In this document: in pieces, positions 12,613 through 46,525 of the stretch
Numbering within the stretch: the first letter of the stretch is position 1
Layout of the letters: each line of letters opens with the position of its first letter
From: Solimonas flava DSM 18980
GTDB lineage: Bacteria; Pseudomonadota; Gammaproteobacteria; Nevskiales; Nevskiaceae
Assembly: GCF_000426685.1 (NCBI RefSeq)
Contig: NZ_AUFV01000007.1
Coordinates: forward strand, 1-64,000
Reading direction: 5' to 3'
Length of the DNA stretch: 64,000 bases
The notes under the pieces: generated by a model
Databases searched by the model: none
What the model was told of the DNA's origin: nothing
Seen by the model: only the letters and a program-made list of their open reading frames with translations
Made by a program: the position numbers and the translations under genes

Positions 12613-12619
12613 CCGCGCT

Positions 12620-15374: not shown

Positions 15375-16733
15375 ATGGCCAAAGCCAAAACCCAATACGT
15401 CTGCCAGAACTGCGGTGGTACCAGTCCGAAATGGGTCGGGCAATGCCCGGATTGTGGGGCCTGGAACAGCCTGACGGAGACGATCGCGACGGCGGCGCCG
15501 AAAGTGCGCGGCGGCGGTATCTCCGGCTTTGCCGGCGGCCGCGTACAGAAGCTTGACGAGGTCGAACTGCAGGAAGAGCCGCGTGCGCATACCGGGCTCG
15601 CCGAGATGGACCGTGTGCTCGGCGGCGGCATCGTACCGGGCGCGGTGATCCTGATCGGCGGCGATCCGGGCATCGGCAAGTCGACCCTGCTGCTGCAGAT
15701 GCTCGCCGAAGTGCACGGGCGCCTGCCGACGCTTTACGTGACCGGCGAGGAATCGCTGACGCAGGTGCACCTGCGCGCGCAACGCCTCGGCCTGACGCGG
15801 CTCGACCTGCCGGTGCTTGCCGAGACCGGCGTCGAGCAGATCATCGCCCAGCTGCAGGCGCTGCGGCCCGGCCTCGTCGTCATCGACTCGATCCAGACGC
15901 TGTACACCGAAACGCTCGATTCGGCGCCGGGCTCGGTGTCGCAGCTGCGCGAATGCGCGGCGCAGCTGGTGCGCTACGCGAAGTCGGCGCAGACGGCGGT
16001 CGTGCTGGTCGGCCACGTCACCAAGGAGGGCGCGATCGCCGGCCCGCGCGTGCTCGAGCACATGGTCGACACGGTGCTTTACTTCGAGCACGACCCGGGC
16101 TCGCGCTTCCGCATCATCCGCGCCGTCAAGAACCGCTTCGGCGCCGTCAACGAGCTCGGCGTGTTCGCGATGACCGACGGTGGCCTCAAGGAAGTCAGCA
16201 ACCCGTCGGCGCTGTTCCTGTCGCGCCACGGCGGGCCGGTGCCGGGCAGCGTCATCACCGTCACGCGCCAGGGCAGCCGGCCGATGCTGGTCGAGGTACA
16301 GGCGCTGGTCGATCAGTCGACGATCGGCAATCCGCGGCGCGTGACGCTCGGCCTCGAAGGCAATCGTCTCAACATGCTGCTGGCGGTGCTGCATCGCCAC
16401 GGCGGCATCTCGCTCGGCGACCAGGACGTGTTCGCCAACGTCGTCGGCGGCATGCGCATCCAGGAAACGGCGGCCGACCTGCCGCTGCTGGTGGCGGCGC
16501 TGTCGAGCTTTCGCAGCCGGCCGGTGCCCGGCGACTGGATCGTCTTCGGCGAGATCGGCCTGGCCGGCGAGGTGCGTCCGGTCGCCGGCGGCGAGGAGCG
16601 CCTGATCGAAGCCGCCAAGCAGGGCTTCCGGCGCGCGATCGTGCCGGAAGCGAACCGGCCGCGGCGCGGCACCAAGCTCGATCTCGACGTCGTCGCGGTA
16701 TCGCGCCTCGACGAGGCGCTGGCGCAGCTTTGA
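15375..16733 (+). CDS. radA: DNA repair protein RadA
   Basis: 452 residues. A DnaB-like/RecA-like ATPase that promotes branch migration in recombinational repair. The N-terminal zinc finger is CQNCGG...CPDCGAW. Walker A is GGDPGIGKSTLLLQ and the RadA-specific KNRFG motif is at AVKNRFGAVNELG. The C-terminal Lon-like domain includes IGEIGLAGEVRPV. The start is ATG 15375. It is convergent with corB (10-bp gap) and divergent from the kinase gene. Confidence 0.97.
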   Translation: MAKAKTQYVCQNCGGTSPKWVGQCPDCGAWNSLTETIATAAPKVRGGGISGFAGGRVQKLDEVELQEEPRAHTGLAEMDRVLGGGIVPGAVILIGGDPGIGKSTLLLQMLAEVHGRLPTLYVTGEESLTQVHLRAQRLGLTRLDLPVLAETGVEQIIAQLQALRPGLVVIDSIQTLYTETLDSAPGSVSQLRECAAQLVRYAKSAQTAVVLVGHVTKEGAIAGPRVLEHMVDTVLYFEHDPGSRFRIIRAVKNRFGAVNELGVFAMTDGGLKEVSNPSALFLSRHGGPVPGSVITVTRQGSRPMLVEVQALVDQSTIGNPRRVTLGLEGNRLNMLLAVLHRHGGISLGDQDVFANVVGGMRIQETAADLPLLVAALSSFRSRPVPGDWIVFGEIGLAGEVRPVAGGEERLIEAAKQGFRRAIVPEANRPRRGTKLDLDVVAVSRLDEALAQL

Positions 16734-31899: not shown

Positions 31900-32880
31900 T
31901 CAGCCCGCGGCCGGGGCGCGCCGGAACAGCAGGGTCCGGCTGCCGTCGCTGCGATGCTCGATGCCGTAGAGCTCGTGCAGTGCAAACAGCACGCTGTCGG
32001 TGTCGCCGATGCGGAACGTGCCGGAAATCGTCAGCTCGGCCAGCGCCGGGTCGTCGAGCACCAGCCGCGTGCGCGTATAGCGGTTGAGCTCGTCGATCGC
32101 GTCGTCGAGCCGGCTGTCGTCGAGCACGATCTTGCCGTCGCGCCAGGCGGTCTTGAGGCCGACCCCGGCATCGTTCTCGACCCGCGGCGGCGCCGCCGCC
32201 TCGAAGCGCGCGATCTGGCCGGCGCTGATCGATGTCGGCGGCACGACGGCCGCTTCGCGGTGGCCGCCGGCGTCGACGCGCACATGGCCTTGCAGCACCG
32301 CCACTTCGAGCGCGCCGTGCCGCTGGCGGACGTCGAAGCGGGTGCCGGTGACGACCACGCGGCGCTCGCCGGAGGCGACCACGAACGGCCGCGACGCATC
32401 GTGCGCGACATCGAAGAAGGCCTCGCCGCGCTGCAGCTCGACGCGGCGCTCGGTGCCGTTGAAGCGCAGGCGCAGCCGGGAATCGGTGTTGAGCCAGATC
32501 GTCGAACCGTCCGGCAGCGCCAGCATGCGGTTCTGGCCGACCGGCGTGCGGTACACGTCGGCCTGCTGCCAGACCAGCAGCGTCACGGCGAGCACGATGC
32601 CGGCAGCTGCCGCAAAGCCGAGCTGCCAGCGCCGCGCGGCCGGCATCGGCAGCGGCCGCTCGGCGAGCTGGCGCAGTTCGCCGCGGATGCGCGGGCTCGC
32701 CGCCAGGCCGGGGGCCAGGCCGGACACCGCCTGCAGGCGCAGGACGAGCGGACGCTGCTCCGGGTGCGCGGCGAGCCAGGCTTCGAAGGCCGCGAAATCG
32801 GCGGCCGTCGCCGTGTTCGAGCGCAGGCGCGCGATCCATTCCGGAGCGCTGCGCGGGGTTCTGTGGAAGAAGGAGCGCAT
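31900..32880 (-). CDS. fecR: FecR-family anti-sigma/sigma regulator
   Basis: 326 residues. The N-terminal cytoplasmic domain (DUF4880-like: WIARLRSNTATAADFAAFEAWLAAHPEQ) would bind the sigma factor. One membrane helix lies at about residues 87-105. The periplasmic FecR domain has LPDGSTIWLNTDSRLRLRF, RRVELQRGEAFFDVAHD and GTRFDVRQ, and the end resembles an STN fold that contacts the receptor. It begins five bases after the sigma stop. Expected role: relay the substrate-bound signal from the TonB receptor's STN domain to the sigma factor. Confidence 0.92.
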   Translation of the reverse strand: MRSFFHRTPRSAPEWIARLRSNTATAADFAAFEAWLAAHPEQRPLVLRLQAVSGLAPGLAASPRIRGELRQLAERPLPMPAARRWQLGFAAAAGIVLAVTLLVWQQADVYRTPVGQNRMLALPDGSTIWLNTDSRLRLRFNGTERRVELQRGEAFFDVAHDASRPFVVASGERRVVVTGTRFDVRQRHGALEVAVLQGHVRVDAGGHREAAVVPPTSISAGQIARFEAAAPPRVENDAGVGLKTAWRDGKIVLDDSRLDDAIDELNRYTRTRLVLDDPALAELTISGTFRIGDTDSVLFALHELYGIEHRSDGSRTLLFRRAPAAG

Positions 32881-32885
32881 GGCGG

Positions 32886-33461
32886 CTAGGGATCGGCGAG
32901 AAAGGGTTGCAGGCGATCGGCGCAGTGGCTCAGGGCGCGCGCCATTTCGCGCTCCACGGTGCGCGTCGTCACGCCCAGGCGGCGGGCGATCTCCGGATAG
33001 CTGAGATGCTCGAGGTGATGCAGCAGGAAGACCCGCCGCGTCGACGGCCGCAGGCCGTAGAGCGCCGCTTCGAGTTCGCGCAGACCCTGGTCCCAGTGCG
33101 CGGCCATGGCGGCGTCGGGGCTGTCGTCTTCGATGCCTTCGTCGCCGAGCGGCTCGTGCGTGTCGCTGTGACGTACCGCGTTGCGGCGGTGGCGGTCGCG
33201 CGCCACGTTCAGAGCCGTGGTGAACAGATAGCCGTGCGTCTCGCCGCGCAGCGTACCGCGCTGCTCCTGGCGCCAGATCTTCAGGAAGGTTTCCTGGATG
33301 CACTCGTCGATTTCGTCGCCGCTCTGCAGATAGCGGCGCAGGAAACGCCCGAGGTCGCGCGCGTGCGCGACGAACCAGGTTTCGACGATCGACTTGCCCT
33401 GCAGGGGTTCGTTCCCGGTCACGGGGAGGTCCGGCGAGTGTAGGGCAAGGCCGCTTTTCAC
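32886..33461 (-). CDS. fecI: FecI-like ECF sigma factor
   Basis: 191 residues. Region 2 (FLRRYLQSGDEIDECIQETFLKIWRQ) and region 4 (LRPSTRRVFLLHHLEHLSYPEIARRLGVTTRTVEREMARAL) are both complete. There is no anti-sigma-like extension. The best start is GTG 33461, overlapping the stop of the alpha/beta hydrolase gene as GTGA; this places the sigma gene inside a hydrolase operon. It probably recognises CTGTCGGG-N13-GCGCGTAGA, seen at two divergent promoter regions (35624-35683 and 40768-40832), one of which would drive its own operon. Confidence 0.93.
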   Translation of the reverse strand: MKSGLALHSPDLPVTGNEPLQGKSIVETWFVAHARDLGRFLRRYLQSGDEIDECIQETFLKIWRQEQRGTLRGETHGYLFTTALNVARDRHRRNAVRHSDTHEPLGDEGIEDDSPDAAMAAHWDQGLRELEAALYGLRPSTRRVFLLHHLEHLSYPEIARRLGVTTRTVEREMARALSHCADRLQPFLADP

Positions 33462-34354
33462 GGCGCCAGCGTGTCGACGAACGCGAGGATCTGCCCGGCC
33501 AGCGCCGTCGCCGCCTCGCGACCGGTGAGGAGCGTGCCGTGCGTGGCGGCGTCGATCACCACTTGCCGGCCGTTCGCCGCCCGCGCCGCCGTCTCGCGGT
33601 GATGGCGCAGCGACGGATGCGCGTCGGCCGCCGGTGCGCGGCGGCGGCCGCGCTGGCTGGCACTGATCACGCGCAGCGGCAGCTGCGCGGGAAACGGCAG
33701 TGCGGCGAGCTCGGCCTGGATCGCCGGAATCGCGCGCAACTCGCGAATGAAGCCGGCGAGATGGCGCGGGTCGGCGATCGCCGCAAGCGCTTCGCGCCGG
33801 GCCTCGTCCGGCAGTCCGGCGACCAGCGCGGCGAACGGATGAAAGCGCCGCAGCAGGCCGGTACGGGCCAGGCCGCGCAGCACCTGCAGCAGCGGAATCA
33901 GCACCGGCAGCAGGCGTCGGTTGGCGCGGTCGAGCAGGTGCGCGTCGAGCGGCGTCGGATCGACCAGCACGAGGCCGGCCGCGCGCTTCGGGTGGGTCGC
34001 GGCGTAGTGCAGCGCGTAGAGCGCGCCGAGCGAATGGCCGACGAAGACGCAGGGGCGATCGATGCCGAGCGCGTCGAGCAGGGCGTCGAGGCGGGCGCCG
34101 ACGGCGGCGGCGCTGACCGTGTCGGTCGCCCCGCTGGCGCCGAGTCCGGCGCGGTCATAGCGGATCGTCAGCGTGCGCGCGGCGAGCGGCGGCTGGACCC
34201 AGGCCCACCAGGCGCCGATCGCGCCGCCGCCGGCTTCGAGGACGATCGGCGGCAGGGCGCCGCGCGTGCCCTCGACGTGGACGTGCAGCGGCACGCCGTC
34301 GCAGTGCACCAAGCTTTCCGGCGGCGGGACGGCGGATTGGCGGTCGGAGGGCAT
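33458..34354 (-). CDS. Alpha/beta hydrolase
   Basis: 298 residues, no signal peptide, so cytoplasmic. The oxyanion/strand region is IVLEAGGGAIGAWWAW, the nucleophile elbow is VGHSLGALYAL (Ser near residue 112) and the probable catalytic histidine is in DAATHGTLL. Overall type resembles proline iminopeptidase/haloalkane dehalogenase-like hydrolases; the substrate is unknown. In context (amidohydrolase, S9 peptidase, epimerase) a peptidase or ester/amide hydrolase role is plausible. It lies 7 bases after the amidohydrolase and overlaps the sigma gene. Confidence 0.82.
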   Translation of the reverse strand: MPSDRQSAVPPPESLVHCDGVPLHVHVEGTRGALPPIVLEAGGGAIGAWWAWVQPPLAARTLTIRYDRAGLGASGATDTVSAAAVGARLDALLDALGIDRPCVFVGHSLGALYALHYAATHPKRAAGLVLVDPTPLDAHLLDRANRRLLPVLIPLLQVLRGLARTGLLRRFHPFAALVAGLPDEARREALAAIADPRHLAGFIRELRAIPAIQAELAALPFPAQLPLRVISASQRGRRRAPAADAHPSLRHHRETAARAANGRQVVIDAATHGTLLTGREAATALAGQILAFVDTLAP

Positions 34355-34361
34355 GGCGGGC

Positions 34362-35591
34362 TCAGATCTGCCGCTTGTGGAAGCGGCCGGCCTTCATGAT
34401 CATGGCCAGCGCGCCGCCGGCGGCGAGCGCTGCCGGATCGCGCAGCGGATCGCCGTCGACCACCAGCAGGTCGGCATGGGCGCCCGGCGCGATGCAGCCG
34501 AGGCGTCCCGGCTGCTGCAGCAGCGCGGCGTTGACGCTGCAGGCCGAGCGCAGGACGTTGAGCGGACTTTGCACCTGGCGGCGCAGCTGGAATTCGAGTT
34601 CGGTGTGCCGGTGCAGCGGGCCGATCAGGTCGGTGCCGAAGCCGATGTGCACGCCGGCCTGCTGCATGTGGTCGAGGCCGGTGAGGGCGTGTTCGGCGAT
34701 GCGCGCGAGCTTGTCGAGGCTGGCCGACGGCAGGCCGAGCGCCGCGCCCTGCGCCTGCAGCGCCGCGCTGACGGCCAGCGTCGGCACGCAATAGCTGCCG
34801 TGCGCGGCGGCCAGCGCCGCGGTGTCCGCGTCGATCAGCGTCGCGTGCTCGATCGAGCGCACGCCGAGTTCGATCGCGCGGCGGATCGCGGCCAGCGGAT
34901 GGCAGTGCGCGGCGACGTAGGCGCCGGCGCGCGCCGCCTCCTCGACGGCGACGCGGATTTCATCGTCCGCGTACTGGCAGCGATCGATCGGATCGGTCGG
35001 CGAGGTGACGCCGCCCGAGCTCATCAGCTTGATGTGGTGGGCGCCGCGGCGCAGTTCCTCGCGCACCGCCAGGCGCACCGCCTGCGGCCCGTCGACCACC
35101 GCCATGCCGAAGCTGCCGTGCGCGGCGCAGCCGCAGGCGGCGCCGTCCTCGTCGGCGCTGCGGAAATCGCCGTGGCCGCCGGTCTGCGACAGCACGCGCC
35201 CGCCGTAGAAGAAGCGCGGCGCATCGAGCAGGCCGTCGGCGATCGCCTGCGCCAGGCTGCGGTCGCCGCCGCCGACGTCGCGCACGGTGGTGAAGCCGCG
35301 GTCGAGCGCGTGGCGCAGGAAGCGGCTCGCGTAGTGCGCCGCGTAGCCGGCGCCGAGCCGCGCGTCGCGCGCGACGTCGAAGCTGGCCGCGTAGACGTGC
35401 ACGTGCGCGTCGATCAGGCCGGGCATCAGCGTGCGGCCGCCGCAATCGATCACCTCCGCATCGCCGGCGCGCAGTGCGCCCGTCGACACCTCCTGGATCA
35501 GCCCGTCGGCGACGCGCACGGCACAGCCTTCGGCGCAATCGCCGCTGTGGCCGTCGAAGATCCGCGCGTTGCGGAACAGGATGCCCGTCAT
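34362..35591 (-). CDS. Amidohydrolase-superfamily protein (prolidase/imidazolonepropionase-like)
   Basis: 409 residues, cytoplasmic. Binuclear-metal amidohydrolase motifs: MPGLIDAHVHVYAASFD (His-x-His), IKLMSSGG (the lysine that becomes carboxylated), YVAAHCHPL, SIEHATLID and GFGTDLIGP. The family includes Caulobacter-type Xaa-Pro and Xaa-Arg/Lys dipeptidases, which fits neighbouring peptide enzymes. The ATG at 35591 gives MTGILFRNARIFDGHSGD; the open frame continues upstream but overlaps the receptor gene and is not credible there. First gene of the operon amidohydrolase-hydrolase-sigma-FecR. Confidence 0.88.
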   Translation of the reverse strand: MTGILFRNARIFDGHSGDCAEGCAVRVADGLIQEVSTGALRAGDAEVIDCGGRTLMPGLIDAHVHVYAASFDVARDARLGAGYAAHYASRFLRHALDRGFTTVRDVGGGDRSLAQAIADGLLDAPRFFYGGRVLSQTGGHGDFRSADEDGAACGCAAHGSFGMAVVDGPQAVRLAVREELRRGAHHIKLMSSGGVTSPTDPIDRCQYADDEIRVAVEEAARAGAYVAAHCHPLAAIRRAIELGVRSIEHATLIDADTAALAAAHGSYCVPTLAVSAALQAQGAALGLPSASLDKLARIAEHALTGLDHMQQAGVHIGFGTDLIGPLHRHTELEFQLRRQVQSPLNVLRSACSVNAALLQQPGRLGCIAPGAHADLLVVDGDPLRDPAALAAGGALAMIMKAGRFHKRQI

Positions 35592-35623: not shown

Positions 35624-35653
35624 GATACGCACGCGGGCGTGCCGACCCGACAG
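35624..35653 (-). promoter_or_regulatory. Predicted ECF-sigma promoter for the amidohydrolase-sigma-FecR operon
   Basis: On the minus strand: CTGTCGGG (35653-35646), exactly 13 bases, then GTGCGTATC (35632-35624). The -10 part keeps the GCGTA core but differs from the other three copies at three positions. The -35 half is shared with the rightward promoter through a perfect 16-bp palindrome (35646-35661). The amidohydrolase ATG is 33 bp downstream. Confidence 0.65.
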
Positions 35654-35683
35654 CTGTCGGGAAAGGCGCGGCCGGCGCGTAGA
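35654..35683 (+). promoter_or_regulatory. Predicted ECF-sigma promoter for the STN TonB receptor and MFS genes
   Basis: CTGTCGGG (35654-35661), 13 bases, GCGCGTAGA (35675-35683). Identical in both elements and spacing to the two promoters at 40768-40832. The receptor ATG is 46 bp downstream. Confidence 0.75.
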
Positions 35684-35729
35684 CATCTGCAGCAGCGCCG
35701 TCATGCATCATCACCGGGGGGGACTCTCG

Positions 35730-38345
35730 ATGCGCCCGCAGTCCATTGCCGTTTCGCGTCCTGCCGTCCGGCCGTTGTGGCCGGCCGGCCTGTTGTGTGT
35801 CCTCGCGATCCTTGCCGGCCTGCCGCGGCCGGCGGTCGCGCAGGCCTCGTCGTCCGCCGCCCTCGCGCAGGAGGCGCAGTTCGATCTCGACATTCCGGCC
35901 GGCAGCCTGGTCGCCGCGCTCGACGCCCTGCGCAGCCAGACCGGCGCGGCGATCGTGTATTCGCCACAGCAGCTCGCGCAGCAGAGCACGCCGGCGCTCG
36001 GCGGCCGCTACTCTGTCGCCGCCGCGCTCGGTCGTCTGCTCGACGGGACGCACTTCGTCTTCAGCGACGACGGCCGCGGCACGTTCGTCGTCAGGCCGGG
36101 CACTGCCGCATCGCCGCCGGCCGCGCCGCTGCGCAGCAGCGGCATCGAGGAGATCGTCGTCACCGCGCAGAAGCGCGAGGAGAAGGCCAAGGACGTCGCC
36201 GGCTCGCTGACCGCCCTGTCCGGCCAGGCGCTCGACAAGCTCGGCGCCAAGACGATCGGCGACTACGCCGCCTACGTGCCCGGCATGGGCTTCAACAGCG
36301 GCCAGGCGGGCCTCGGCCAGATCACGCTGCGCGGCGTCACGACCGGCGTGCAGCAATCGAGCGCGACGGTCGGCACCTATGTCGACGACACACCGTTCAC
36401 GCCGTTCAGCCGCACCGCCAGCGGCACGACGCTGGTGCCTGACGTCGACACCTTCGACGTGCAGCGCGTCGAGGTGCTGCGCGGGCCGCAGGGCACGCTG
36501 TACGGCGCCGGCGCGATGGGCGGCCTGCTCAAGTACGTGACTACACCGCCGAGCTTCGCCGGCTGGCGCGGACGCGCGGAACTGGAGCCCGGCCGCACGG
36601 TCAACGCCGACGGCTGGAACTTCGGCGGCAAGGCCATGCTCAACGCGCCGCTCGGCGATGATCTGGCGCTGCGCGCCAGCGGCTTCAGCCGTCGCGACGC
36701 CGGCTTCATCGACGACGTCGGCACCGGCGCGGACGGCGTCAACCACAGCCGCTCGGACGGCGGACGTCTGGGCCTGCGCTTCGCGCCCGGCGAGCGTCTC
36801 GACGTGCGCCTGACCGCGCTGCTGCAGCGCAACGCCGCCGGCAGCGGCACCAGCGTCGACGTCGACCCCGATACGCTGCGGCCGCTGTACGGCGATCTGC
36901 AGCAGTCGCGGCAGATGCCGGAGCGCACGACGATGCGCTTCCAGGTCTACAACCTCGCGCTCAACTGGGATCTGGACTGGGCCAGCTTCGTGTCGTCGAC
37001 GAGCTACGCCGACACCTCGGTCGACGCGCTCGTCGACTACTCGCAGAGCTACGGCTCGACCATCGCCCTGCTGTCGGCGCTGTACCTGCATCCGGTCGCG
37101 CAGTCGCCGCTGGTGTCGGCGTCGGCGGACGTCGGCGCGCGCAAGCTGACCCAGGAATTCCGCCTGACGTCGCCGAACAACCGCTCGCTGGAATGGATCG
37201 TCGGCGCCTTCTACACGCGCGAGACCACCGATACCGCGCAGGACATCCGCGCCTGGCTGCCGGACGAGAACGCCTTGCTGAAGCTGGCGCCGCAGATGGA
37301 GCGTCCGCTGGTGCTGTCGGTGCCGTCGCGCTACCGCGAGTACGCCGGCTTCGGCAGCATCGACTGGTATTTCACCGAGCGCATCGACCTGACGCTCGGC
37401 GCACGCTGGAGCGCCAACCGACAGTCGGCGACGCAGAACGCCTCCGGCGCGCTGTGGGACCTGACCTCGCTGCTCGCCGACGCCAGCTCGGTCGATCTCG
37501 CCGCGATCCTGGCCGCGCTGCAGGATGCGGGCGCGACCACGACCACGACCACGCACTCGTCCTCGTCGGACAACACCGCGACCTACCGCATCGCGCCGCG
37601 CTGGCGCGTGACGGACGACGTGACGCTGTACGCCGCCGCCGCCAACGGCTACCGCCCCGGTGGTCCGAACATGCAGCTCAGCCCGTCGGTGCCGGAATCG
37701 TTCGGGCCCGACTCGCTGTGGAGCTACGAGGCCGGCGTCAAGACGCAGCTGTTCGAGCGCCGGGTGTCGTTCGATCTGGCCGGCTTCTACATCGACTGGA
37801 ACGACATCCAGCTCGGTTCGACGGCCGACGGCTTCTCCTACCTCGCCAACGGCGGCGCGGCGTCGAGCCGCGGCGCGGAGATGAACTTCGCGTGGCGCGT
37901 GTGGCCGAGCCTGGTGGTCGGCGTCAACGGCGCCTACACGCGTGCGCGGCTCGACGCCGATGCGCCCGACGTCGGCGGCCGTCGCGGCGACGCGCTGCCG
38001 ACGGTGCCGAAGTGGAGCTATTCGATCGTCGTCGACCAGCTGCTGCCGCTGTTCGACGACTGGATGGCGAATTTCGGTGCCAGCTATCGCTATCTCGGCG
38101 CGCGCAACAGCAGCTTCGAGGCCAGCGGGAACAAGCCCAACGTCGTGATGCCTTCGTACCAGACGCTCAATTTGCGTGCCGGCCTGCTCAACGACGTCTG
38201 GGGCCTGACGCTGTTCGCCAACAACGTCTTCGACGAGCGCGGCATCGTCACCGTCGACACCAGCTTCGTGCCCGACGGCGGCGCGGCGCGCGCCAACGTC
38301 ATCGTGCCGCGCACGATCGGCTTGCGCCTGTCGGCGCAGTTCTGA
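35730..38345 (+). CDS. TonB-dependent receptor with N-terminal STN signalling domain
   Basis: 871 residues. Signal peptide (LWPAGLLCVLAILAGLPRPAVAQ), then an STN/secretin domain at about residues 50-120 (FDLDIPAGSLVAALDALRSQTGAAIVYSP; VAAALGRLLDGTHFVF). The TonB box region EEIVVTAQKREEKAKDV, plug (TLRGVTTGVQQSSATVGTYVDD; VLRGPQGTLYGAGAMGGLLKYVT) and a large barrel ending in SAQF follow. A threonine-rich patch (ATTTTTTHSSSS) near residue 605 looks like a surface loop. The STN domain marks it as a transducer that signals to FecR/ECF sigma. The plug is of the large peptide/carbohydrate-uptake type. ATG 35730 is preferred over 35703. Confidence 0.9.
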   Translation: MRPQSIAVSRPAVRPLWPAGLLCVLAILAGLPRPAVAQASSSAALAQEAQFDLDIPAGSLVAALDALRSQTGAAIVYSPQQLAQQSTPALGGRYSVAAALGRLLDGTHFVFSDDGRGTFVVRPGTAASPPAAPLRSSGIEEIVVTAQKREEKAKDVAGSLTALSGQALDKLGAKTIGDYAAYVPGMGFNSGQAGLGQITLRGVTTGVQQSSATVGTYVDDTPFTPFSRTASGTTLVPDVDTFDVQRVEVLRGPQGTLYGAGAMGGLLKYVTTPPSFAGWRGRAELEPGRTVNADGWNFGGKAMLNAPLGDDLALRASGFSRRDAGFIDDVGTGADGVNHSRSDGGRLGLRFAPGERLDVRLTALLQRNAAGSGTSVDVDPDTLRPLYGDLQQSRQMPERTTMRFQVYNLALNWDLDWASFVSSTSYADTSVDALVDYSQSYGSTIALLSALYLHPVAQSPLVSASADVGARKLTQEFRLTSPNNRSLEWIVGAFYTRETTDTAQDIRAWLPDENALLKLAPQMERPLVLSVPSRYREYAGFGSIDWYFTERIDLTLGARWSANRQSATQNASGALWDLTSLLADASSVDLAAILAALQDAGATTTTTTHSSSSDNTATYRIAPRWRVTDDVTLYAAAANGYRPGGPNMQLSPSVPESFGPDSLWSYEAGVKTQLFERRVSFDLAGFYIDWNDIQLGSTADGFSYLANGGAASSRGAEMNFAWRVWPSLVVGVNGAYTRARLDADAPDVGGRRGDALPTVPKWSYSIVVDQLLPLFDDWMANFGASYRYLGARNSSFEASGNKPNVVMPSYQTLNLRAGLLNDVWGLTLFANNVFDERGIVTVDTSFVPDGGAARANVIVPRTIGLRLSAQF

Positions 38346-38359
38346 GCGGCGCCATTTCC

Positions 38360-39709
38360 ATGCAAGCCTCTCAGGCCGGGCCCGGCGCGGGTCCGGCGCC
38401 GGCGCTCAGCGTCTGGCGCAAGCTCGGCTTCGGCACCGGCGCGGCCGGCATCGGCATCGGCAACGCGCCGATCAGTCTGCTGCTGCTCTTCTATCTGACC
38501 GAGATCGCCGGCCTGCCGCCGGGTCTGGCCGGCGTCGTCGTCGGTCTGCCGAAGATCTGGGACATCGTCATCGACCCTCTGCTCGGCGGCGCCGTCGACC
38601 GCCTCAGTCGCCGCCGCGGCCGCCGTGCGCCGCTGGCCTTCGTCTCGGCGCTGGCCTACGTGGTGGCGCTGTACGGCCTGTTCGCGATCCCGGACGGCCT
38701 GTCGCAGGGGGCGGTGATGGCGCTGGCGATCGCGCTGCTGATCGTCTCGTCGGTCGCGCACACTGCGTTCATGGTGCTCAAGCTGGCGCTCAGCGACGAC
38801 ATGAGCCCCGAGCCGCGCGCACGCACGGCGCTGCTCGCCTATTCGGGCGTGCTGTCGATGCTGCTGACGCTGGTGGCGACGGCGCTGGTGCCGTTCCTCG
38901 TCAAATGGGGCGGCGACGGGCGCGAGGGCTACGCGCGCATGGCGCTGGTGATCGCCGCCGCCGGCGCGGCGACCTTCTTCGTCTTCCTGCTGTCGACGCA
39001 CCGCTATCCGGCATTGCAGCCGTACCGGAGCGGGGGCGAGCCGGCGCTGTGGCGCTCGATCCGCATGACGCTCGGCAACCGCCCGTTCTTCTGGCTGATC
39101 GGCTTCCTGATCTGTCTGGGCGTATCGAGCGGCCTGCTCAGCGCCTTCGTGCCGTACATCAACCAGTACGTGCTGCGCGGCGGCACGGCGAGCCTGTCGG
39201 TGCTCGGCTCGATCGTGCTGATCAGCACCCTGATCGCGATGCCATTCGTCACGCTGCTGGCGCGCCGCATCGGCAACACCGCGACCCTGCGTCTCAGCAA
39301 CTGGATCTTCCTGGCCTCGTTCCCGCTGCTGTGGCTGGCCTCGTACGGGCCGCTGTGGGCGAGCTGGGCGGCGGTCGGCGTGTTCGGTCTCGGCGCCGGC
39401 GGCATGGCGGTGCTGCTGCAGTCCACCGTCATCGACCTCGCCAAGGCGGTGCTGCCCGGCGGCGTGGTCGTTTCGCTCGGCATCTACCTCGGCATCCTGA
39501 TGGCGGCGCAGAAGCTCGGCCAGTCGGCCGGCAGCGCCGGCGCCGGCTTCGTGCTCGAACTGATCGGCTTCGTGCCGGGCCAGGCCGCGCAGAGCGACGT
39601 CACGCTGTCGGTGCTGCGCCTCGGCTACACGCTGCTGCCGTTCCTGCTCAGCCTGCTCGGCACGGTCTGCATCCGCCGCGTGCGCGTCACCGCGGAGCCG
39701 GCGGCCTAG
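38360..39709 (+). CDS. MFS transporter (GPH-like)
   Basis: 449 residues, about 12 membrane helices. The N-terminus LSVWRKLGFGTGAAGIGIGNAPISLLLLFYLTE style and KIWDIVIDPLLGGAVDRLSRRRGRRAP loop are typical of glycoside-pentoside-hexuronide-type and related MFS symporters. It should carry the receptor's substrate, or a fragment of it, across the inner membrane. It begins 14 bp after the receptor stop, on the same predicted ECF transcript. Ends 7 bp from the convergent epimerase gene. Confidence 0.85.
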   Translation: MQASQAGPGAGPAPALSVWRKLGFGTGAAGIGIGNAPISLLLLFYLTEIAGLPPGLAGVVVGLPKIWDIVIDPLLGGAVDRLSRRRGRRAPLAFVSALAYVVALYGLFAIPDGLSQGAVMALAIALLIVSSVAHTAFMVLKLALSDDMSPEPRARTALLAYSGVLSMLLTLVATALVPFLVKWGGDGREGYARMALVIAAAGAATFFVFLLSTHRYPALQPYRSGGEPALWRSIRMTLGNRPFFWLIGFLICLGVSSGLLSAFVPYINQYVLRGGTASLSVLGSIVLISTLIAMPFVTLLARRIGNTATLRLSNWIFLASFPLLWLASYGPLWASWAAVGVFGLGAGGMAVLLQSTVIDLAKAVLPGGVVVSLGIYLGILMAAQKLGQSAGSAGAGFVLELIGFVPGQAAQSDVTLSVLRLGYTLLPFLLSLLGTVCIRRVRVTAEPAA

Positions 39710-39716
39710 CAGGATC

Positions 39717-40727
39717 TCAGGCGGCCAGCCCCCAGCCGCCGGCCTCGACCAGCGCGCCGCCGGCGTAACGCGTCGCCGGCTCGCGGTCGCGGCGCAGGAA
39801 CAGCGGGCCGTCGAGATCGACCCAGTCGCAGAACTGCGCGAGCACGAAGGCCGGCGCGATCGACAGCGAGGTGCCGCCCATGCAGCCGACCATCACGCCG
39901 AGCCCGCGCGTCCGCGCCGCGGCGACGATCGCCAGTGCCTCGCTGAGACCGCCGGTCTTGTCGAGCTTCAGGTTGACGGCCTGGTAGAGCGCGGCGACGC
40001 GGTCCAGATCGGCGAGGCCCTGCAGCGATTCGTCGGCGGCGAACGGAATCGGCGAGCGGATCGAACCCAGCGCGTCGTCGCGGCCGGCCGGCAGCGGCTG
40101 CTCGATCAGCGCCACAGCGCAGCGCTGCAGCGTCGGCAGCAGCGCGCACAGATGATCCGGCGTCCAGCCCTGGTTGGCGTCGACGGTGAGCGTCGCGTCG
40201 GCGCGCGCCGCGCGTACCGCCGCGACCCGCGCTGCATCGAGCGCGCTGCCGTCGAGCTTGAGCTTGAGCAGGCCGAAGTCCGACAGCGCCGCGGCCTGCT
40301 GCGCCATCGTCTCCGGCGCGTCGACGCCGAGCGTCACCGTGGTCGGCCGCGCGCGCAGCGCGGCGAGGCCGAGACGCGTCGCCACCGCCACGCCGCTGCG
40401 CTGCGCTTCGAGATCCCACAGCGCGCAGTCGAGCGCGTTGCGCGCGCCGCCGCAGGGCAGCAGGCGTCGCGCGCCGTCGCGGTCGAGGCCGGCCTCGATT
40501 TCGTCGCGCACCGTTTCGAGTTGCGCGCGCAGGGTGTCGACGCTCTCGCCGCGGTAGTGCACGCCCAGCGCCTCGCCGCGGCCGCAGTGCGCGCCCTGGC
40601 GCAAGGTGACGACCACCACCGGCGAGCCGTCGACGACGCCGTTGCTGAGCCGGACCGGCTGCCGGAAATCCCATTGCTCGATGGCGAGGTCGAGCTGCAG
40701 AGGGGCGTGTGACGGGGAGGTGTTCAT
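39717..40727 (-). CDS. Dipeptide epimerase (enolase superfamily, L-Ala-D/L-Glu epimerase-like)
   Basis: 336 residues, cytoplasmic. Enolase-superfamily barrel with the catalytic KxK (Lys155 and Lys157 in LLKLKLDG), metal ligands Asp183 (TVDANQGW), Glu209 (IEQPLP) and Asp232 (AADESL), and the second base Lys257 (LKLDKTGG). CMGGTS and the DLDG near residue 304-306, which binds the dipeptide amino group, point to the dipeptide epimerase subgroup. It interconverts L and D residues at the second position of a dipeptide, often in murein or D-amino-acid peptide catabolism. Leftward from its own predicted ECF promoter. Confidence 0.88.
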   Translation of the reverse strand: MNTSPSHAPLQLDLAIEQWDFRQPVRLSNGVVDGSPVVVVTLRQGAHCGRGEALGVHYRGESVDTLRAQLETVRDEIEAGLDRDGARRLLPCGGARNALDCALWDLEAQRSGVAVATRLGLAALRARPTTVTLGVDAPETMAQQAAALSDFGLLKLKLDGSALDAARVAAVRAARADATLTVDANQGWTPDHLCALLPTLQRCAVALIEQPLPAGRDDALGSIRSPIPFAADESLQGLADLDRVAALYQAVNLKLDKTGGLSEALAIVAAARTRGLGVMVGCMGGTSLSIAPAFVLAQFCDWVDLDGPLFLRRDREPATRYAGGALVEAGGWGLAA

Positions 40728-40767
40728 CGTGCTCGCGCGGTTTCGGAAAAGGGCTTTCTGCTGAAGC

Positions 40768-40797
40768 TCTACGCGCTGTCGGTCGCCGCCCCGACAG
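40768..40797 (-). promoter_or_regulatory. Predicted ECF-sigma promoter for the dipeptide epimerase
   Basis: On the minus strand: CTGTCGGG (40797-40790), exactly 13 bases, GCGCGTAGA (40776-40768), a perfect match to the rightward copies. The epimerase ATG is 40 bp downstream. Confidence 0.75.
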
Positions 40798-40802
40798 CTC
40801 GC

Positions 40803-40832
40803 CTGTCGGGATCGCGACCGGTGGCGCGTAGA
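40803..40832 (+). promoter_or_regulatory. Predicted ECF-sigma promoter for the serine hydrolase and S9 peptidase genes
   Basis: CTGTCGGG (40803-40810), 13 bases, GCGCGTAGA (40824-40832). With the leftward promoter it forms an inverted repeat with a five-base centre (CTCGC), so the whole 40768-40832 segment is symmetric. Confidence 0.75.
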
Positions 40833-40876: not shown

Positions 40877-42556
40877 GTGAACGAGATGCCCGTGTCCGAT
40901 CCCGCCGCGCTGCAGGCGCGGCTCGATGAGCTGTTCGCGCCGCAGAATCGCGGCGACGCGCCGGGGCTGACGGTCGCGGTCGCCCGGCAGGGCCGGATGC
41001 TTTACCGGCGCGGCTTCGGCCTGGCCAGCATCGAGCACGGCGTCGCCAACCGCCCGGCGACGCGCATGCGCATCGGCTCGACGACCAAGCAGTTCACCTG
41101 CCTGTCGGTCCTGCTGCTCGCCGAGGAAGGCCGCCTCGATCTGGATGCCGACGTGCGCGCCGTGCTGCCGGAGATGCCGCGCTTCACCGCGCCGCTGACG
41201 GCGCGCCAGCTGATGCAGCACAGCAGCGGCCTGCGCTGTCACCTGGACCTGTGGATGCTGGCGACCGGCAGCAAGGCGCGCCTGCCGGACGGCGAGCCCT
41301 ACGCCCAGCTGCTGCGCCTGCGCGAACTCAACTTTGCGCCGGGCGAGCGCATGATCTACTGCAACGGCGGCTACGTGGTGCTCGCGCAGCTGATCGAGCG
41401 TCTGTCCGGGCTGTCGCTGGGCGCGTTCTTCGAGCGCCGCATTTTCAAGCCGCTGCGCATGCTCGACACCGAACTGCTGCCGCGCGACGGCCAGCTGCTG
41501 CCGGGTTGCGCCGGTCTGCACGTGCGCGCCGGCGACGGTTACGTGCGCGGCCAGATTCCGCTGCCGATGAGCGGCGACGGCGGCCTCGTCTCGACGGTCG
41601 ACGATCTGCTGATCTGGCTGCGCCACATGGACGCGCCGGTGATCGGCAGCGCACGCAGCTGGGCGGCGATGCGGGCGCCGACGCGTTTCACCGGCGGCAC
41701 CGAAGGCGACTACGGCCTGGGCCTGATCCGTCGGCCGTATCGCGGCGTGACGCTGCTCGGCCACGCCGGCGCGGTGATCGGCGGTCTGGCGGAATGCGTG
41801 AAGGTGCCCGAGCACGGCCTCGACATCGCGCTGCTCGCCAATCGCTCCGACGTGCCGACCGCCGAGCTGGTCAAGCGCATCGTCGATCTCGTGCTCGGCG
41901 AACGGCTCGCGCCGCCGCCGCCGCGCGCCACCGTCGCCGGCAGCGCCGCGTTCGAAGGGCTTTACTGCCATGCCTACAGCGGCCAGCTGCTCGGCGTTGT
42001 TGCCAGCGGCGAGCATCTGGCGGCGGATTTCGCCGGCCTGAAGCTGCCGCTCTGGCAGCGCGGGGATGATCTGGTCGCCGCCGGCAGCGTCGGCGATGTC
42101 GTGTTCCGGCGCCCCGCCGGCGCCGCCGATGCGCCGGGCGATCTGGACGTCATCGAATGCGGCATCGCGCAGCGCTTTCGCCGGCTCGGCGCGGCGCCGG
42201 ACGCGCTGAGCGCCGGCGCGGCTGCGCTCGCCGGTCGTTACCGCAGCGCCGAACTGCCGGCCGAGGCCGAGATCTTCGAGGTCGACGGCCGCTGGCTGCT
42301 CGGCGTGCAGGCGCGCCACGGACGCACGCTGTACGCGATGACGCCGCTCGACGTCGACCTCTGGTCGATCGCACTCGCCGACGGCTCGCTGCCGTATCGC
42401 CAGCTGCTGACGGTGGCGCGCGACGGCGCGCAGGTATCCGGCCTGCAGCTGTCGTCGCTGCGCACGCGGCGGCTGGCGTTCGCGCGGGTCGGTGCCGATG
42501 CGGCGCCCTGCCTCGGCCGCGGCTGGCTCGAGGGCTTCACGTTCGCGCCGGCCTGA
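40877..42556 (+). CDS. Beta-lactamase-fold serine hydrolase (class C/D-aminopeptidase-like)
   Basis: 559 residues without a signal peptide. SxxK is Ser68-Thr-Thr-Lys71 (RIGSTTKQFT), the YxN motif is Tyr161-Cys-Asn163, and a HxG-type motif appears in LLGHAGAVIGG. A C-terminal lipocalin-like extension (residues about 370-559) resembles D-aminopeptidases and related peptidases rather than secreted beta-lactamases. Cytoplasmic location and neighbours suggest hydrolysis of an imported peptide. GTG 40877 is chosen because a perfect AGGAGGT lies at 40861-40867. A 76-bp gap, containing a short tandem ATTTCCGCGCCC repeat, precedes the S9 peptidase. Confidence 0.88.
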   Translation: MNEMPVSDPAALQARLDELFAPQNRGDAPGLTVAVARQGRMLYRRGFGLASIEHGVANRPATRMRIGSTTKQFTCLSVLLLAEEGRLDLDADVRAVLPEMPRFTAPLTARQLMQHSSGLRCHLDLWMLATGSKARLPDGEPYAQLLRLRELNFAPGERMIYCNGGYVVLAQLIERLSGLSLGAFFERRIFKPLRMLDTELLPRDGQLLPGCAGLHVRAGDGYVRGQIPLPMSGDGGLVSTVDDLLIWLRHMDAPVIGSARSWAAMRAPTRFTGGTEGDYGLGLIRRPYRGVTLLGHAGAVIGGLAECVKVPEHGLDIALLANRSDVPTAELVKRIVDLVLGERLAPPPPRATVAGSAAFEGLYCHAYSGQLLGVVASGEHLAADFAGLKLPLWQRGDDLVAAGSVGDVVFRRPAGAADAPGDLDVIECGIAQRFRRLGAAPDALSAGAAALAGRYRSAELPAEAEIFEVDGRWLLGVQARHGRTLYAMTPLDVDLWSIALADGSLPYRQLLTVARDGAQVSGLQLSSLRTRRLAFARVGADAAPCLGRGWLEGFTFAPA

Positions 42557-42632: not shown

Positions 42633-44570
42633 GTGACTGCCTCCGCTCCGCTGTTGCCCCGATCCCTGCTGCTCGGCAATCCGAGCCGTGCCGCGCCGCT
42701 GCTCAGCCCCGACGGCCGGCGCATCAGCTTCATCGCGCCGCTCGACGGCGTGCTCAACATCTGGATCGCGCCGGCCGACGATCCCGCCGCCGCGCGGCCG
42801 CTGACGCGCGACACCGGCCGCGGTATCCGCCAGCACGGCTGGGCGCACGCCGGCACGCATCTCTGGTATCTGCAGGACGAGGGCGGCAACGAGAACTTCC
42901 ATCTGTACTCGGTGCCGATCGACGGCGGCGCCGCGCTCGACCTGACGCCGTACCCACGCGTGCAGGCGCGCATCGTCGGTTTCAGCCGCCGCTTTCCGCG
43001 CGAGGCGCTGGTGGCGGTCAATCACCGCGATCCGCGCTGGCACGACGTGCTGCGCATCGACCTCGGCGACGGGCGCACGACGACGGTTTGCGAGAACCAC
43101 GGATTCGCGCAGTTCCTTGCCGACGACGCGCTGCAGCTGCGCGTCGCACTGCGCAACACCGCCGACGGCGGCCGCGACGTGCTGGTGCCGGACGGTGCGG
43201 GCTGGCGCGAGCTGTTCCATATCGGCCGCGACGACGTCATCACCAGCAGCCCGCTCGCGGTCGGGCCCGACGACAGCGGATTGCTGTACTTCCTCGACAG
43301 CCGCGGCCGCGACACCGCGGCGGCGGTGGCGATCGACGCCGCCAGCGGTGCCGTGACGGCGCTCGGCGCGCATCCGCGCACCGACGTGCTCGGCGTGGTC
43401 TTCAATCCGCAGACGCGCCGGCCCGAGGCCTACCGCACCGACGAGCTGCAGCCGGAATGGACCGTCATCGATCCCGCCGTCGAGGCCGACTTCCGCCATC
43501 TGCGCGCGCAGGCCTCGGGCGATTTCCGCATCGTCGATCGCAGCGCCGACGACCGCCGCTGGATCGTCGTGTTCTCCTGCGACCGCCTGCCCGGGCACTA
43601 CTACCTGTACGAGCGCGACAGCGGCCGGCTCGCGTTTCTGTTCTCGGCGCGCCCGGATCTCGAAGGCTGGACGCTGGCGGCGATGCGCGCGGTGGCGATC
43701 GAGGCGCGCGACGGCCGGCGTCTGGTGTCGTACCTGAGCCTGCCGCCGGACGCGTCGCCGGCGGCCGGTCCGCTGCCGATGGTGCTGCTCGTGCACGGCG
43801 GACCGTGGTCGCGCGATCACTACGGCTACAACCCGGAGCACCAGTTCTTCGCCAGCCGCGGCTACGCCGTGCTCAGCGTCAACTTCCGCGGCTCGACCGG
43901 CTTCGGCAAGGACTTCGTCAACGCCGGCGATCTCGAATGGGGCGGCCGCATGCACGAGGACCTGCTCGACGCGGTCGAGTGGGCGGTGACGCAGGGCATC
44001 GCGCAGCGCGAGCGCATCGCCATCATGGGCGGCAGCTACGGCGGCTACGCCGCACTGGCCGGCCTCAGCTTCACGCCGGAGGTGTTCGCCTGCGGCATCG
44101 ACATCGTCGGGCCGTCGAATCTCGAAACGCTTCTGTCGAGCTTTCCGGCGTACTGGGCGCCGCTGTTCGAGAACTTCGCGCAGCGCGTCGGCGATCCGCG
44201 CACCGAGGCCGGCCGCGCACTACTGCGTGCGCGCTCGCCGCTGCATTGCTGTGAGCGCATCGTGCGGCCGCTGCTGATCGCGCAGGGCGCCAACGACGTG
44301 CGCGTGACGCGCGCCGAGTCCGACCAGATCGTCGAGACCCTGCAGCGCAACGGCCAGCCGGTGATCTACGCGCTCTATCCGGACGAGGGTCACGGCTTCG
44401 CCAGGCCGCAGAACCGGCTGTCGTTCATGGCGATCGCCGAGGCCTTCCTGGCCTCGGTGCTCGGCGGCCGCTGCCAGCCGTACGGCGACGATCTCGGCGC
44501 TTCCAGCCTCGTCATCCTCGCCGGCGCCGAGCAGGTCGCGGCGATCAACGCGTCGGGTTGTTCAGGGTGA
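42633..44570 (+). CDS. Prolyl oligopeptidase-family (S9) peptidase
   Basis: 645 residues, no signal peptide. The N-terminal beta-propeller (LSPDGRRISFIAPLDG; HLWYLQDEGGNENFHLYSV) occupies about residues 25-370. The C-terminal hydrolase has VLLVHGGPWSRDHYGYN, Ser468 in MGGSYGGYAAL, Asp555 in ANDVRV and His587 in DEGHGFA, a complete triad. The arrangement is closest to acylaminoacyl/dipeptidyl-peptidase-like S9C enzymes. Lasso-peptide isopeptidases also belong to S9, but no lasso biosynthesis genes are visible. It starts at GTG 42633 and is cotranscribed with the serine hydrolase. Confidence 0.92.
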   Translation: MTASAPLLPRSLLLGNPSRAAPLLSPDGRRISFIAPLDGVLNIWIAPADDPAAARPLTRDTGRGIRQHGWAHAGTHLWYLQDEGGNENFHLYSVPIDGGAALDLTPYPRVQARIVGFSRRFPREALVAVNHRDPRWHDVLRIDLGDGRTTTVCENHGFAQFLADDALQLRVALRNTADGGRDVLVPDGAGWRELFHIGRDDVITSSPLAVGPDDSGLLYFLDSRGRDTAAAVAIDAASGAVTALGAHPRTDVLGVVFNPQTRRPEAYRTDELQPEWTVIDPAVEADFRHLRAQASGDFRIVDRSADDRRWIVVFSCDRLPGHYYLYERDSGRLAFLFSARPDLEGWTLAAMRAVAIEARDGRRLVSYLSLPPDASPAAGPLPMVLLVHGGPWSRDHYGYNPEHQFFASRGYAVLSVNFRGSTGFGKDFVNAGDLEWGGRMHEDLLDAVEWAVTQGIAQRERIAIMGGSYGGYAALAGLSFTPEVFACGIDIVGPSNLETLLSSFPAYWAPLFENFAQRVGDPRTEAGRALLRARSPLHCCERIVRPLLIAQGANDVRVTRAESDQIVETLQRNGQPVIYALYPDEGHGFARPQNRLSFMAIAEAFLASVLGGRCQPYGDDLGASSLVILAGAEQVAAINASGCSG

Positions 44571-44626: not shown

Positions 44627-44659
44627 CGCGGCCACCGAGTTCTCAGGGAGGTGATAGGA

Positions 44660-46525
44660 ATGGCGGTCGAAAAGCGTGAATTCCAGGCGGAAGTGCGGCA
44701 TCTGCTGCACCTGATGATCCATTCGCTGTACTCGAACAAGGAAATCTTCCTGCGCGAGCTGATTTCGAATGCCTCGGATGCCTGCGACAAGCTGCGCTTC
44801 GAGGCGATCGCCAGGCCCGAGCTGCTCGGCGGCGACGAGCTCGCAGTCGAGCTGATTCCCGATCCGGCGGCGGGCACGCTGACGATCCGCGACAACGGCG
44901 TCGGCATGTCGCGCGACGAGGTGATCGAGAACCTCGGCACGATCGCGCGCTCGGGCACGCGCAAGTTCATCGAGTCGCTGTCCGGTGACCAGAAGAAGGA
45001 CTCGCAGCTGATCGGCCAGTTCGGCGTCGGCTTCTACTCCGCCTACATCGTCGCCGACCGGGTGACGGTGCTGAGCAAGCGTACCGACGCCGACGCGGTG
45101 CGCTGGGAATCGGACGGGCAGGGCGAGTTTTCCGTCGAGCCCTCGTTCAAGCTCGACCGCGGCACCGAGGTGATCCTGCACCTGCGCGAGGACGACAAGG
45201 AATTTCTGGAGCCGGTGCGTCTGGCGACGATCGTGCGCCGCTACTCGGACCACATCGGCCTGCCGATCAAGCTCAAGAACGACAAGGGCGAGCTCGAGAC
45301 GCTGAATCAGGCGCGCGCGTTCTGGACGCGGCCGAAGTCCGAGCTCAAGGACGAGGACTACGCGAAATTCTACGAGCAGATCGCGCACGACTATCAGGCG
45401 CCGCTGGCCTGGGCGCATCACAAGGTCGAAGGCACGATCGAGTACACCTCGCTGCTCTACATTCCGTCGCACGCGCCGTTCGATCTCTGGGATCGCGAGC
45501 AGTCGCGCGGCGTGCAGCTCTACGTCAAACGCGTCTTCATCATGGACAAGGCGGCCGAGCTGCTGCCGCCGTACCTGCGCTTCGTGCGTGGCGTGGTCGA
45601 CACGCCGGACCTGCCGCTGAACGTTTCGCGCGAGATCCTGCAGGGCAATCGCACGGTCGAGAAGATCCGCGGCGCGCTGGTCAAGCGCGTGCTCGATCTG
45701 CTCGACGACATGGCCGCCAACAAGCCGGACGACTACGCGAAATTCTGGGCGGCGTTCGGCGTGGTGCTGAAGGAGGGCATCGTCGAGGATGCCGCCAACC
45801 GCGAGCGCATCGCCCGCCTGTGCCGCTTCCATTCGACCGCCGCGCCGGATCAGCCGGAGGTTTCGCTCGAAGCCTACGTGGCGCGCATGCCGGCCGAGCA
45901 GGGCGGCATCTACTATCTGACTGCCGACACGCTGGCGGCCGCGCGCAGCTCGCCGCATCTGGAGGGTTTCCGCGCCCGCAACTTCGAGGTGCTGCTGCTC
46001 GTCGACCGCATCGATGAATGGGTGGTCGGCCATCTGAACGAATTCGGTGGCAAGAAGCTGGAATCGGTGTCGCGGGCGTCCAGGGATCTCGAAAGCAAGA
46101 TCGAGACGCCGGACAAGGCGCGCCTCGAAGGCGAGTACAAGGACGTGCTCGAACACCTGCAGAAGACACTCGGCGAGCGCGTCGAGTCGGTGCGGCTGTC
46201 GTCGCGCCTGACCGAGTCGCCGTCATGCCTGGTGGCCGGCGAATACGCGCTGTCGCGCCGGCTCGAGGAAATGCTCAAGCGCGCCGGCGAGCAGGCGCCG
46301 TCGTCGCGGCCGATCCTCGAACTCAATCCGACCCATCCGCTGGTCGAGAAGCTGAAGGCGACCGCCGACGAGGCGACGTTCGCCGATCTCGGCGAGCTGC
46401 TGTTCGGTCAGGCGGTGCTCGCCGAAGGCGGCCAGCTCGACGATCCGGCCGGCTTCGTGCGCCGCCTGAACAAGCTGCTGCTTGGCGGCACCGGCGGCAA
46501 CGCCGGCCGCATCATCGTCGGCTGA
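44660..46525 (+). CDS. htpG: Molecular chaperone HtpG (Hsp90)
   Basis: 621 residues. ATP-dependent cytosolic chaperone dimer. The GHKL ATPase domain has [42 protein letters not shown] and [14 protein letters not shown]. The middle domain ([30 protein letters not shown]) and the C-terminal dimerisation domain follow. ATG 44660 has GGGAGGTG at 44646-44653; the in-frame GTG at 44651 lies inside that ribosome binding site. Confidence 0.97.

Follow-up and report, generated by a model that had tools for sequence, protein, structure and literature searches.

Two back-to-back pairs of predicted ECF promoters in a putative FecI-type sigma regulon of Solimonas flava

We analysed a stretch of 64,000 nucleotides from Solimonas flava DSM 18980 (contig NZ_AUFV01000007.1, positions 1 to 64,000), referred to here as the window. 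It holds an island of genes for a FecI-like extracytoplasmic function (ECF) sigma factor, a FecR-type anti-sigma factor, a TonB-dependent receptor, a symporter and several enzymes, with four promoter-like sites in two divergent intergenic regions. The island is very probably a FecI/FecR/TonB-transducer cell-surface-signalling regulon, whose own sigma factor would read promoters of the form TGTCGG-N17-CGTAG. Both this promoter reading and the predicted confinement of the regulon to the island are well supported by comparison with related loci.

Genes and promoter-like sites of the island

The initial annotation had described inverted CTGTCGGG arms in both intergenic regions, and its letters and coordinates proved exact at all four sites. 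In the 138 bp between the amidohydrolase and receptor genes the arms lie at 35646-35653 (-) and 35654-35661 (+), with spacing 0. In the 149 bp between the epimerase and serine hydrolase genes they lie at 40790-40797 (-) and 40803-40810 (+), with spacing 5. Thirteen bases past each arm stands GCGCGTAGA (three of the four sites) or GTGCGTATC (one site). Four outward copies of TGTCGGG-N16-CGTA, two per region, are present:

35626..35652, minus strand: predicted ECF promoter 1, TGTCGGG-N16-CGTA, 34 nt from the end of CGTA to the start codon; towards the amidohydrolase, hydrolase, sigma and anti-sigma genes
35655..35681, plus strand: predicted ECF promoter 2, 48 nt from the end of CGTA to the start codon; towards the receptor and transporter genes
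40770..40796, minus strand: predicted ECF promoter 3, 42 nt from the end of CGTA to the start codon; towards the epimerase gene
40804..40830, plus strand: predicted ECF promoter 4, 46 nt from the end of CGTA to the start codon; towards the serine hydrolase gene and probably also the S9 peptidase gene

The genes of the island, with their best family scores, are the following:

31900..32880, minus strand: FecR-type anti-sigma factor; Pfam FecR 4.7e-25, DUF4880 2.9e-9, FecR_C 1.2e-4 (22.5 bits, below the cut-off of 24.4)
32886..33461, minus strand: FecI-like ECF sigma factor, 191 aa; Pfam Sigma70_r4_2 2.7e-15 and Sigma70_r2 4.1e-12 (above cut-off)
33458..34354, minus strand: alpha/beta hydrolase; Pfam Abhydrolase_1 1.7e-16; overlaps the sigma gene by 4 bp
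34362..35591, minus strand: amidohydrolase, Xaa-Pro dipeptidase-like, first in the sigma operon; Pfam Amidohydro_1 2.9e-44, NCBIfam XaaProDiPepCaul 5.4e-75 (252.9 bits, cut-off 500)
35730..38345, plus strand: TonB-dependent receptor with N-terminal STN domain; Pfam barrel 5.3e-35, Plug 4.2e-19, STN 6.1e-6
38360..39709, plus strand: MFS_2 / GPH-type inner-membrane symporter; Pfam MFS_2 4.9e-51 (scan of a longer frame)
39717..40727, minus strand: enolase-superfamily enzyme, dipeptide epimerase / N-acetyl-D-Glu racemase-like; NCBIfam DgcA 1.3e-110 (369.7 bits, cut-off 400)
40877..42556, plus strand: beta-lactamase-fold serine hydrolase, D-aminopeptidase-like; Pfam Beta-lactamase 7.1e-59, NCBIfam D-aminopeptidase 5.8e-49 (167 bits, cut-off 443)
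42633..44570, plus strand, start codon inferred: S9 (prolyl oligopeptidase family) peptidase; Pfam Peptidase_S9 4.8e-42 (scan from 42627)

Along the minus strand the amidohydrolase, hydrolase, sigma and anti-sigma genes follow one another at gaps of 7, -4 and 5 bp, the last of them between the sigma gene and the FecR gene (31900-32880). Judged by gaps and strand, each gene set is probably read as one transcript. The regulon that had been proposed, comprising sigma, anti-sigma, receptor, transporter and five enzymes, fits this gene order, and its dependence on the sigma is predicted. The NCBIfam FecI models matched the sigma with E-values of 6.7e-22 and 6.6e-21, both under cut-off. The epimerase also matched the L-Ala-D/L-Glu epimerase model (1.2e-73, 248 bits, cut-off 343), and the S9 peptidase matched Dpp5 (4.5e-24) and the Atxe2-type lasso isopeptidase (9.5e-22), both far under cut-off. 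Since these NCBIfam scores stay below the cut-offs, assignment at the level of the family alone is safe.

The motif in the window and the genome

The CTGTCGGG arm alone occurs nine times in the window (mean of 100 shuffles 2.91, largest 7), a modest enrichment and weak evidence. With up to two mismatches allowed, TGTCGG-N14-GYGCGTA matched 13 times in the window; 100 shuffles averaged 7.26 matches, and 3 of them had at least 13. The exact pattern matched the four sites only. The exact element is stronger evidence. TGTCGG-N17-CGTA occurs four times in the window, while 400 letter-permuted controls averaged 0.18 and never exceeded 3, and all other spacings from 5 to 40 together gave five matches.

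Across the 4.46 Mb genome, TGTCGG-N16-GCGTA has four matches, all in the island, which bears out the expectation that a whole-genome search would be limited to it. The reversed-pattern control also gave four (3+1), so the count itself is ordinary and the signal is the co-location of the matches. Free spacing (TGTCGG-N8-26-CGTA) brought no genome-wide enrichment (194 matches, reversed control 175). The shortened TGTCG-N18-CGTA matched 16 times, only the island four being TGTCGG, and its reversed control 48 times. The confinement to the island holds for the exact motif; weaker members with mismatches may exist elsewhere.

Conservation in related loci

Among 61 genomes (its own and those of 60 relatives), a search with the sigma yielded a single further close orthologue, in Stagnimonas aquatica (G019, 63% identity); the next best match had 36%. 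A scan of genome contigs with short peptide patterns returned nine loci, seven of which carry 48-70% identity over most of the sigma. These seven are Stagnimonas (L037) and six metagenome-assembled genomes labelled Alphaproteobacteria, Caulobacteraceae, Rhodospirillaceae or Proteobacteria. The other two, L042 and L043, have weak or partial sigma matches and were excluded from the spacing counts; L042 has no motif match. A profile search of 398 genomes of the phylum (E <= 1e-35, up to eight candidates scored per genome) found only the own genome, so the sigma subfamily looks rare.

The alignment of orthologous loci bore out the proposal, as the promoter motif is present in all seven. Over their 116,847 bases, TGTCGG and CGTA occur at spacing 17 in 18 matches, against 10 over the other 35 spacings (5 to 40), and 400 letter-permuted motifs at spacing 17 averaged 0.27, with 3 at most. 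The base after CGTA, absent from the search pattern, is G in all 18. When CGTC was allowed as well, three CGTC sites were added to the 18.

We then aligned 22 sites, four from the window and 18 from the relatives. Since the sites were chosen by their TGTCGG and CGT letters, independent evidence comes only from the columns outside these, such as the G after CGTA. TGTCGG is conserved and is followed by G in 16 of 22; the last column of CGTA is kept in 21 of 22 and the next G again in 21 of 22. The CGTC site L037 4155-4181 is in this alignment and outside the 18-match count. Three sites were left out: L038 6408-6434, and the CGTC forms L038 3386-3412 and L039 3653-3679, which lie inside open reading frames (ORFs). 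The strongly conserved element is TGTCGG-N17-CGTAG. The TGTC- and CGTA-type cores about 17 bp apart, which the initial annotation had taken for an ECF promoter, stand. The GCG preceding CGTA shows little conservation (no column above 12 of 22), and GCGCGTAGA as the -10 element was narrowed to CGTAG.

All but one of the 18 aligned sites in relatives lead into a gene or ORF. The genes that follow encode receptors, an S9 peptidase, an amidohydrolase or fragment, an alpha/beta hydrolase, the sigma, an amino-acid enzyme and amidases, besides two ORFs. Promoters of the island-encoded sigma are the best reading of the four sites, as the same motif precedes homologous genes in relatives. The window, Stagnimonas, L035 and L036 share the receptor, symporter, sigma, anti-sigma, alpha/beta hydrolase, D-aminopeptidase-like and S9 genes, the S9 gene of Stagnimonas being interrupted by the locus edge. 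The amidohydrolase has a 56-residue match in L035 and no match in L036. L038-L041 share with the window the sigma and FecR-like genes (a 64-residue FecR stretch in L038) and carry receptors; amidases are encoded in L040 and L041.

Proposed signalling pathway

In the mechanism that we propose, an extracellular peptide or derivative would bind the TonB-dependent receptor, whose STN domain would signal to the FecR anti-sigma factor. Going by the family, FecR would then release the FecI-like sigma. The sigma would recognise TGTCGG-N17-CGTAG promoters, as comparative genomics suggests, and, according to gene order, the four promoters in two back-to-back pairs would serve the island operons including the sigma's own. 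Their products would import and cleave peptides, and the epimerase would handle peptide residues. Since the sigma's own operon is among the targets, the circuit would give positive feedback.

Several observations weigh against this interpretation. Promoter 1, ahead of the sigma operon, has T after CGTA where the other 21 aligned sites have G, and may therefore be weaker. In L038-L041 the intergenic site next to the sigma gene faces away from it, so autoregulation is not universal. The exception among the aligned sites is L035 9774-9800 (-), which lies next to the sigma gene and is oriented antisense to the transporter gene, whose end it faces. L038 6408-6434, one of the 18 matches, fits TGTCGG-N17-CGTAG within the sigma gene and is probably coding. 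The STN domain of the window receptor scores 26.4 bits, slightly under the Pfam cut-off of 28.4, and the receptors divergent from the sigma in L038, L039 and L040 gave no STN at E 0.001; STN is above the Pfam cut-off in the receptor orthologues of L035, L036 and L037 and in receptors of L040 and L041. The substrate, finally, is a guess from enzyme families with NCBIfam scores under cut-off.

Mirror symmetry of the promoter pairs

Of 85 genomes of the order, two contain the bidirectional pattern TACG-N17-CCGACA-N0-12-TGTCGG-N17-CGTA, with two occurrences in the own genome and one in Stagnimonas; of 398 genomes drawn from the phylum, one does, again the own. The controls gave 0 matches in both sets. 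Stagnimonas has a second mirror pair with CGTC at one end. In the window, the stretch shared across both TGTCGGG arms is 16 and 21 bp long.

The symmetric palindrome had been regarded as a special element, and this part was not supported. In the window 2 and 7 bp separate the TGTCGG cores, in Stagnimonas 6 and 3 bp; the orthologous amidohydrolase/receptor region has a gap of 2 in the former and 6 in the latter. The constant feature is the internal spacing of each promoter, not the gap between promoters. The promoter stands single in relatives of other gene order; in L035 and L036 the matched genes all run in one direction, with no mirror pair. With the varying gaps, this speaks against a fixed palindromic element. 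The symmetry is genuine and seldom seen; its inverted repeat, however, would simply be two divergent -35 elements: four operons diverge pairwise from short intergenic regions, so that their -35 elements nearly touch. At L035 9774-9800 a one-mismatch inverted arm lies at gap 0, which may be what remains of a mirror pair once genes were rearranged.

Gaps this small would hardly leave room for two polymerases at once, so competition between the directions is a fair prediction. The near-touching pairs may, speculatively, form a bidirectional ECF promoter module, in which the shared stretch is taken by a single holoenzyme at any moment and the operons compete, or couple through the same initiation event, setting their ratio within the positive-feedback loop; we consider this rather unlikely. 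Equally doubtful is the wider idea that the symmetry is a selected device, close -35 elements admitting one polymerase at a time and fixing the operon ratio, or coupling the operons through supercoiling. It would suit the four pairs, which come from two species of a single family and have 2-7 bp between cores, and the finding that, in the window and the seven loci, CCGACA lies within 12 bp upstream of TGTCGG in 8 of 225 cases, the arm number of the four pairs. However, the short intergenic regions (34-48 nt from CGTA to the start codon in the window) crowd the promoters anyway, the gap of the orthologous region differs between the two species, and other relatives manage without pairs.

Alternative explanations

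Instead of being -35 elements, the inverted CTGTCGGG arms could serve as operators bound by a dimeric repressor or activator, since inverted repeats in two divergent regions are a usual operator layout. Outside the mirror pairs, however, 13 of 14 aligned sites lack an exact CCGACA within 40 bp upstream and the remaining one has it 23 bp away, while N17-CGTAG is kept at all 13 single sites and at this one. The core gaps vary between 2, 3, 6 and 7 bp, and none of the island proteins scanned was recognised as a further DNA-binding regulator. As the half-site stands in register with CGTAG without a partner arm, we rejected the operator reading of the palindrome, which is very improbable. Chance matches in GC-rich DNA can be practically dismissed, even though CTGTCGGG alone occurs at five further places in the window, mismatches or free spacing bring the motif close to background, and reversed patterns match in the genome too. 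The spacing and letter controls, the recurrence at sigma orthologues and the spacing-17 excess in relatives with its unselected G all contradict chance.

It is somewhat less remote, though still improbable, that a different sigma of this cell reads the promoters and the linked sigma is one among several. The own genome has eight matches to the window sigma, itself included, among 28 candidates, and TGTCGG is also a -35 form in a promoter row of ECF42 RpoE10 from Sinorhizobium (PMC6180224). Against this, the motif travels with orthologues of the linked sigma in Gamma- and Alphaproteobacteria. The region-4 stretch TRTVEREMARA is invariant in all eight aligned sigma sequences, while the own FecI-like paralogues (four regions examined, three aligned) have visibly different letters at this position in all three. 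The linked sigma as the putative reader of TGTCGG fits both the invariance and the paralogue difference.

Comparison with known systems

The island resembles ferric citrate signalling by FecI/FecR/FecA of E. coli in its FecI-like sigma, FecR, a TonB receptor with an N-terminal signalling domain and a receptor gene that would be under the sigma. It departs from E. coli Fec in its targets, which are hydrolases and a symporter, and in its -35/-10 code, TGTCGG/CGTAG. According to a passage of a review, fecIR and hasI are not autoregulated (PMC9249621), whereas the sigma operon of the island carries the sigma's own promoter type. In PUMA3 (VreA/VreI/VreR) of Pseudomonas aeruginosa the sigma gene shares an operon with a putative target gene, as one account describes (PMC2729926), so the island is not alone in placing a sigma within an operon of its regulon. 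In PUMA3 the anti-sigma gene apparently forms a unit of its own and the receptor has no barrel, while in the island sigma and anti-sigma genes are adjacent and the receptor has a barrel.

Factors of the ECF42 group are known for a fused C-terminal domain; the island sigma has 191 aa. A promoter row for RpoE10 of Sinorhizobium shares the TGTCGG form of the -35 element, but its -10 is CGTC (PMC6180224), while here it is CGTAG, with CGTA at all four window sites. Lasso-peptide isopeptidase clusters of Asticcacaulis and Sphingopyxis, as outlined in one report (PMC9266682), combine a prolyl-oligopeptidase-like hydrolase, a TonB-dependent transporter and a sigma/anti-sigma pair; the island likewise has an S9 hydrolase near a TonB receptor and a sigma/anti-sigma pair. 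We rejected the label of a lasso-peptide cluster, since the S9 protein reaches 77.5 bits where the Atxe2-type isopeptidase cut-off is 400.

Symmetry in the -10 element of housekeeping promoters was reportedly described by Warman et al. in 2021. Bidirectional promoters are known in bacteria, as stated in one article (PMC12340889), and in Sorangium two divergent promoters overlap under the CarH repressor, according to the relevant passage of another (PMC9304148). As in these cases, the divergent promoters of the island share a short stretch; unlike the -10 symmetry of housekeeping promoters and the Sorangium repressor case, they have two separate ECF -35 elements that face away from each other. 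In the portions consulted of the open-licence PMC literature on symmetric, bidirectional or back-to-back promoters we recognised no symmetric ECF -35 pairs, a finding that argues only weakly for their absence.

Switches of this kind are known, while the island version and the promoter code look new. The locus points to a FecI-like sigma subfamily whose sharply defined promoter code is found in two bacterial classes, which makes the regulon readable from a genome. It also suggests that cell-surface signalling, with positive feedback built in, is used for apparent peptide scavenging, and it provides a natural test case of two ECF promoters on one shared DNA stretch.

Substrate and neighbouring genes

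In the three islands compared (window, Stagnimonas and L035), the hydrolases are each time accompanied by an amino-acid-type enzyme. In Stagnimonas this is a D-serine-dehydratase-domain protein (L037 8362-9666), the first gene of a mirror promoter, and in L035 an enzyme of the D-cysteine desulfhydrase family (12700-13836). Together with the D-aminopeptidase-like hydrolase, these enzymes suggest a peptide substrate, perhaps one with D-residues. The amino-acid enzymes of the three islands (39717-40727 in the window, L037 8362-9666, L035 12700-13836) are unrelated, as if a substrate-specific step had been swapped.

Other genes follow the promoter in some relatives. At L035 11641-11808 only the first 56 amidohydrolase residues match, directly after a promoter, and the gene may be truncated there. 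The same promoter stands ahead of amidase genes at L040 10119-10145 (+) and L041 8034-8060 (+), loci whose available DNA contains no match to the window peptidases. In L039 the site at 15387-15413 (-) leads into an ORF of 1068 residues (12075-15281). In the window, the gene at 44651-46525 (+), which from its first residues we take to encode an HtpG-like chaperone, begins 80 bp past the S9 peptidase gene, and read-through from promoter 4 is possible.

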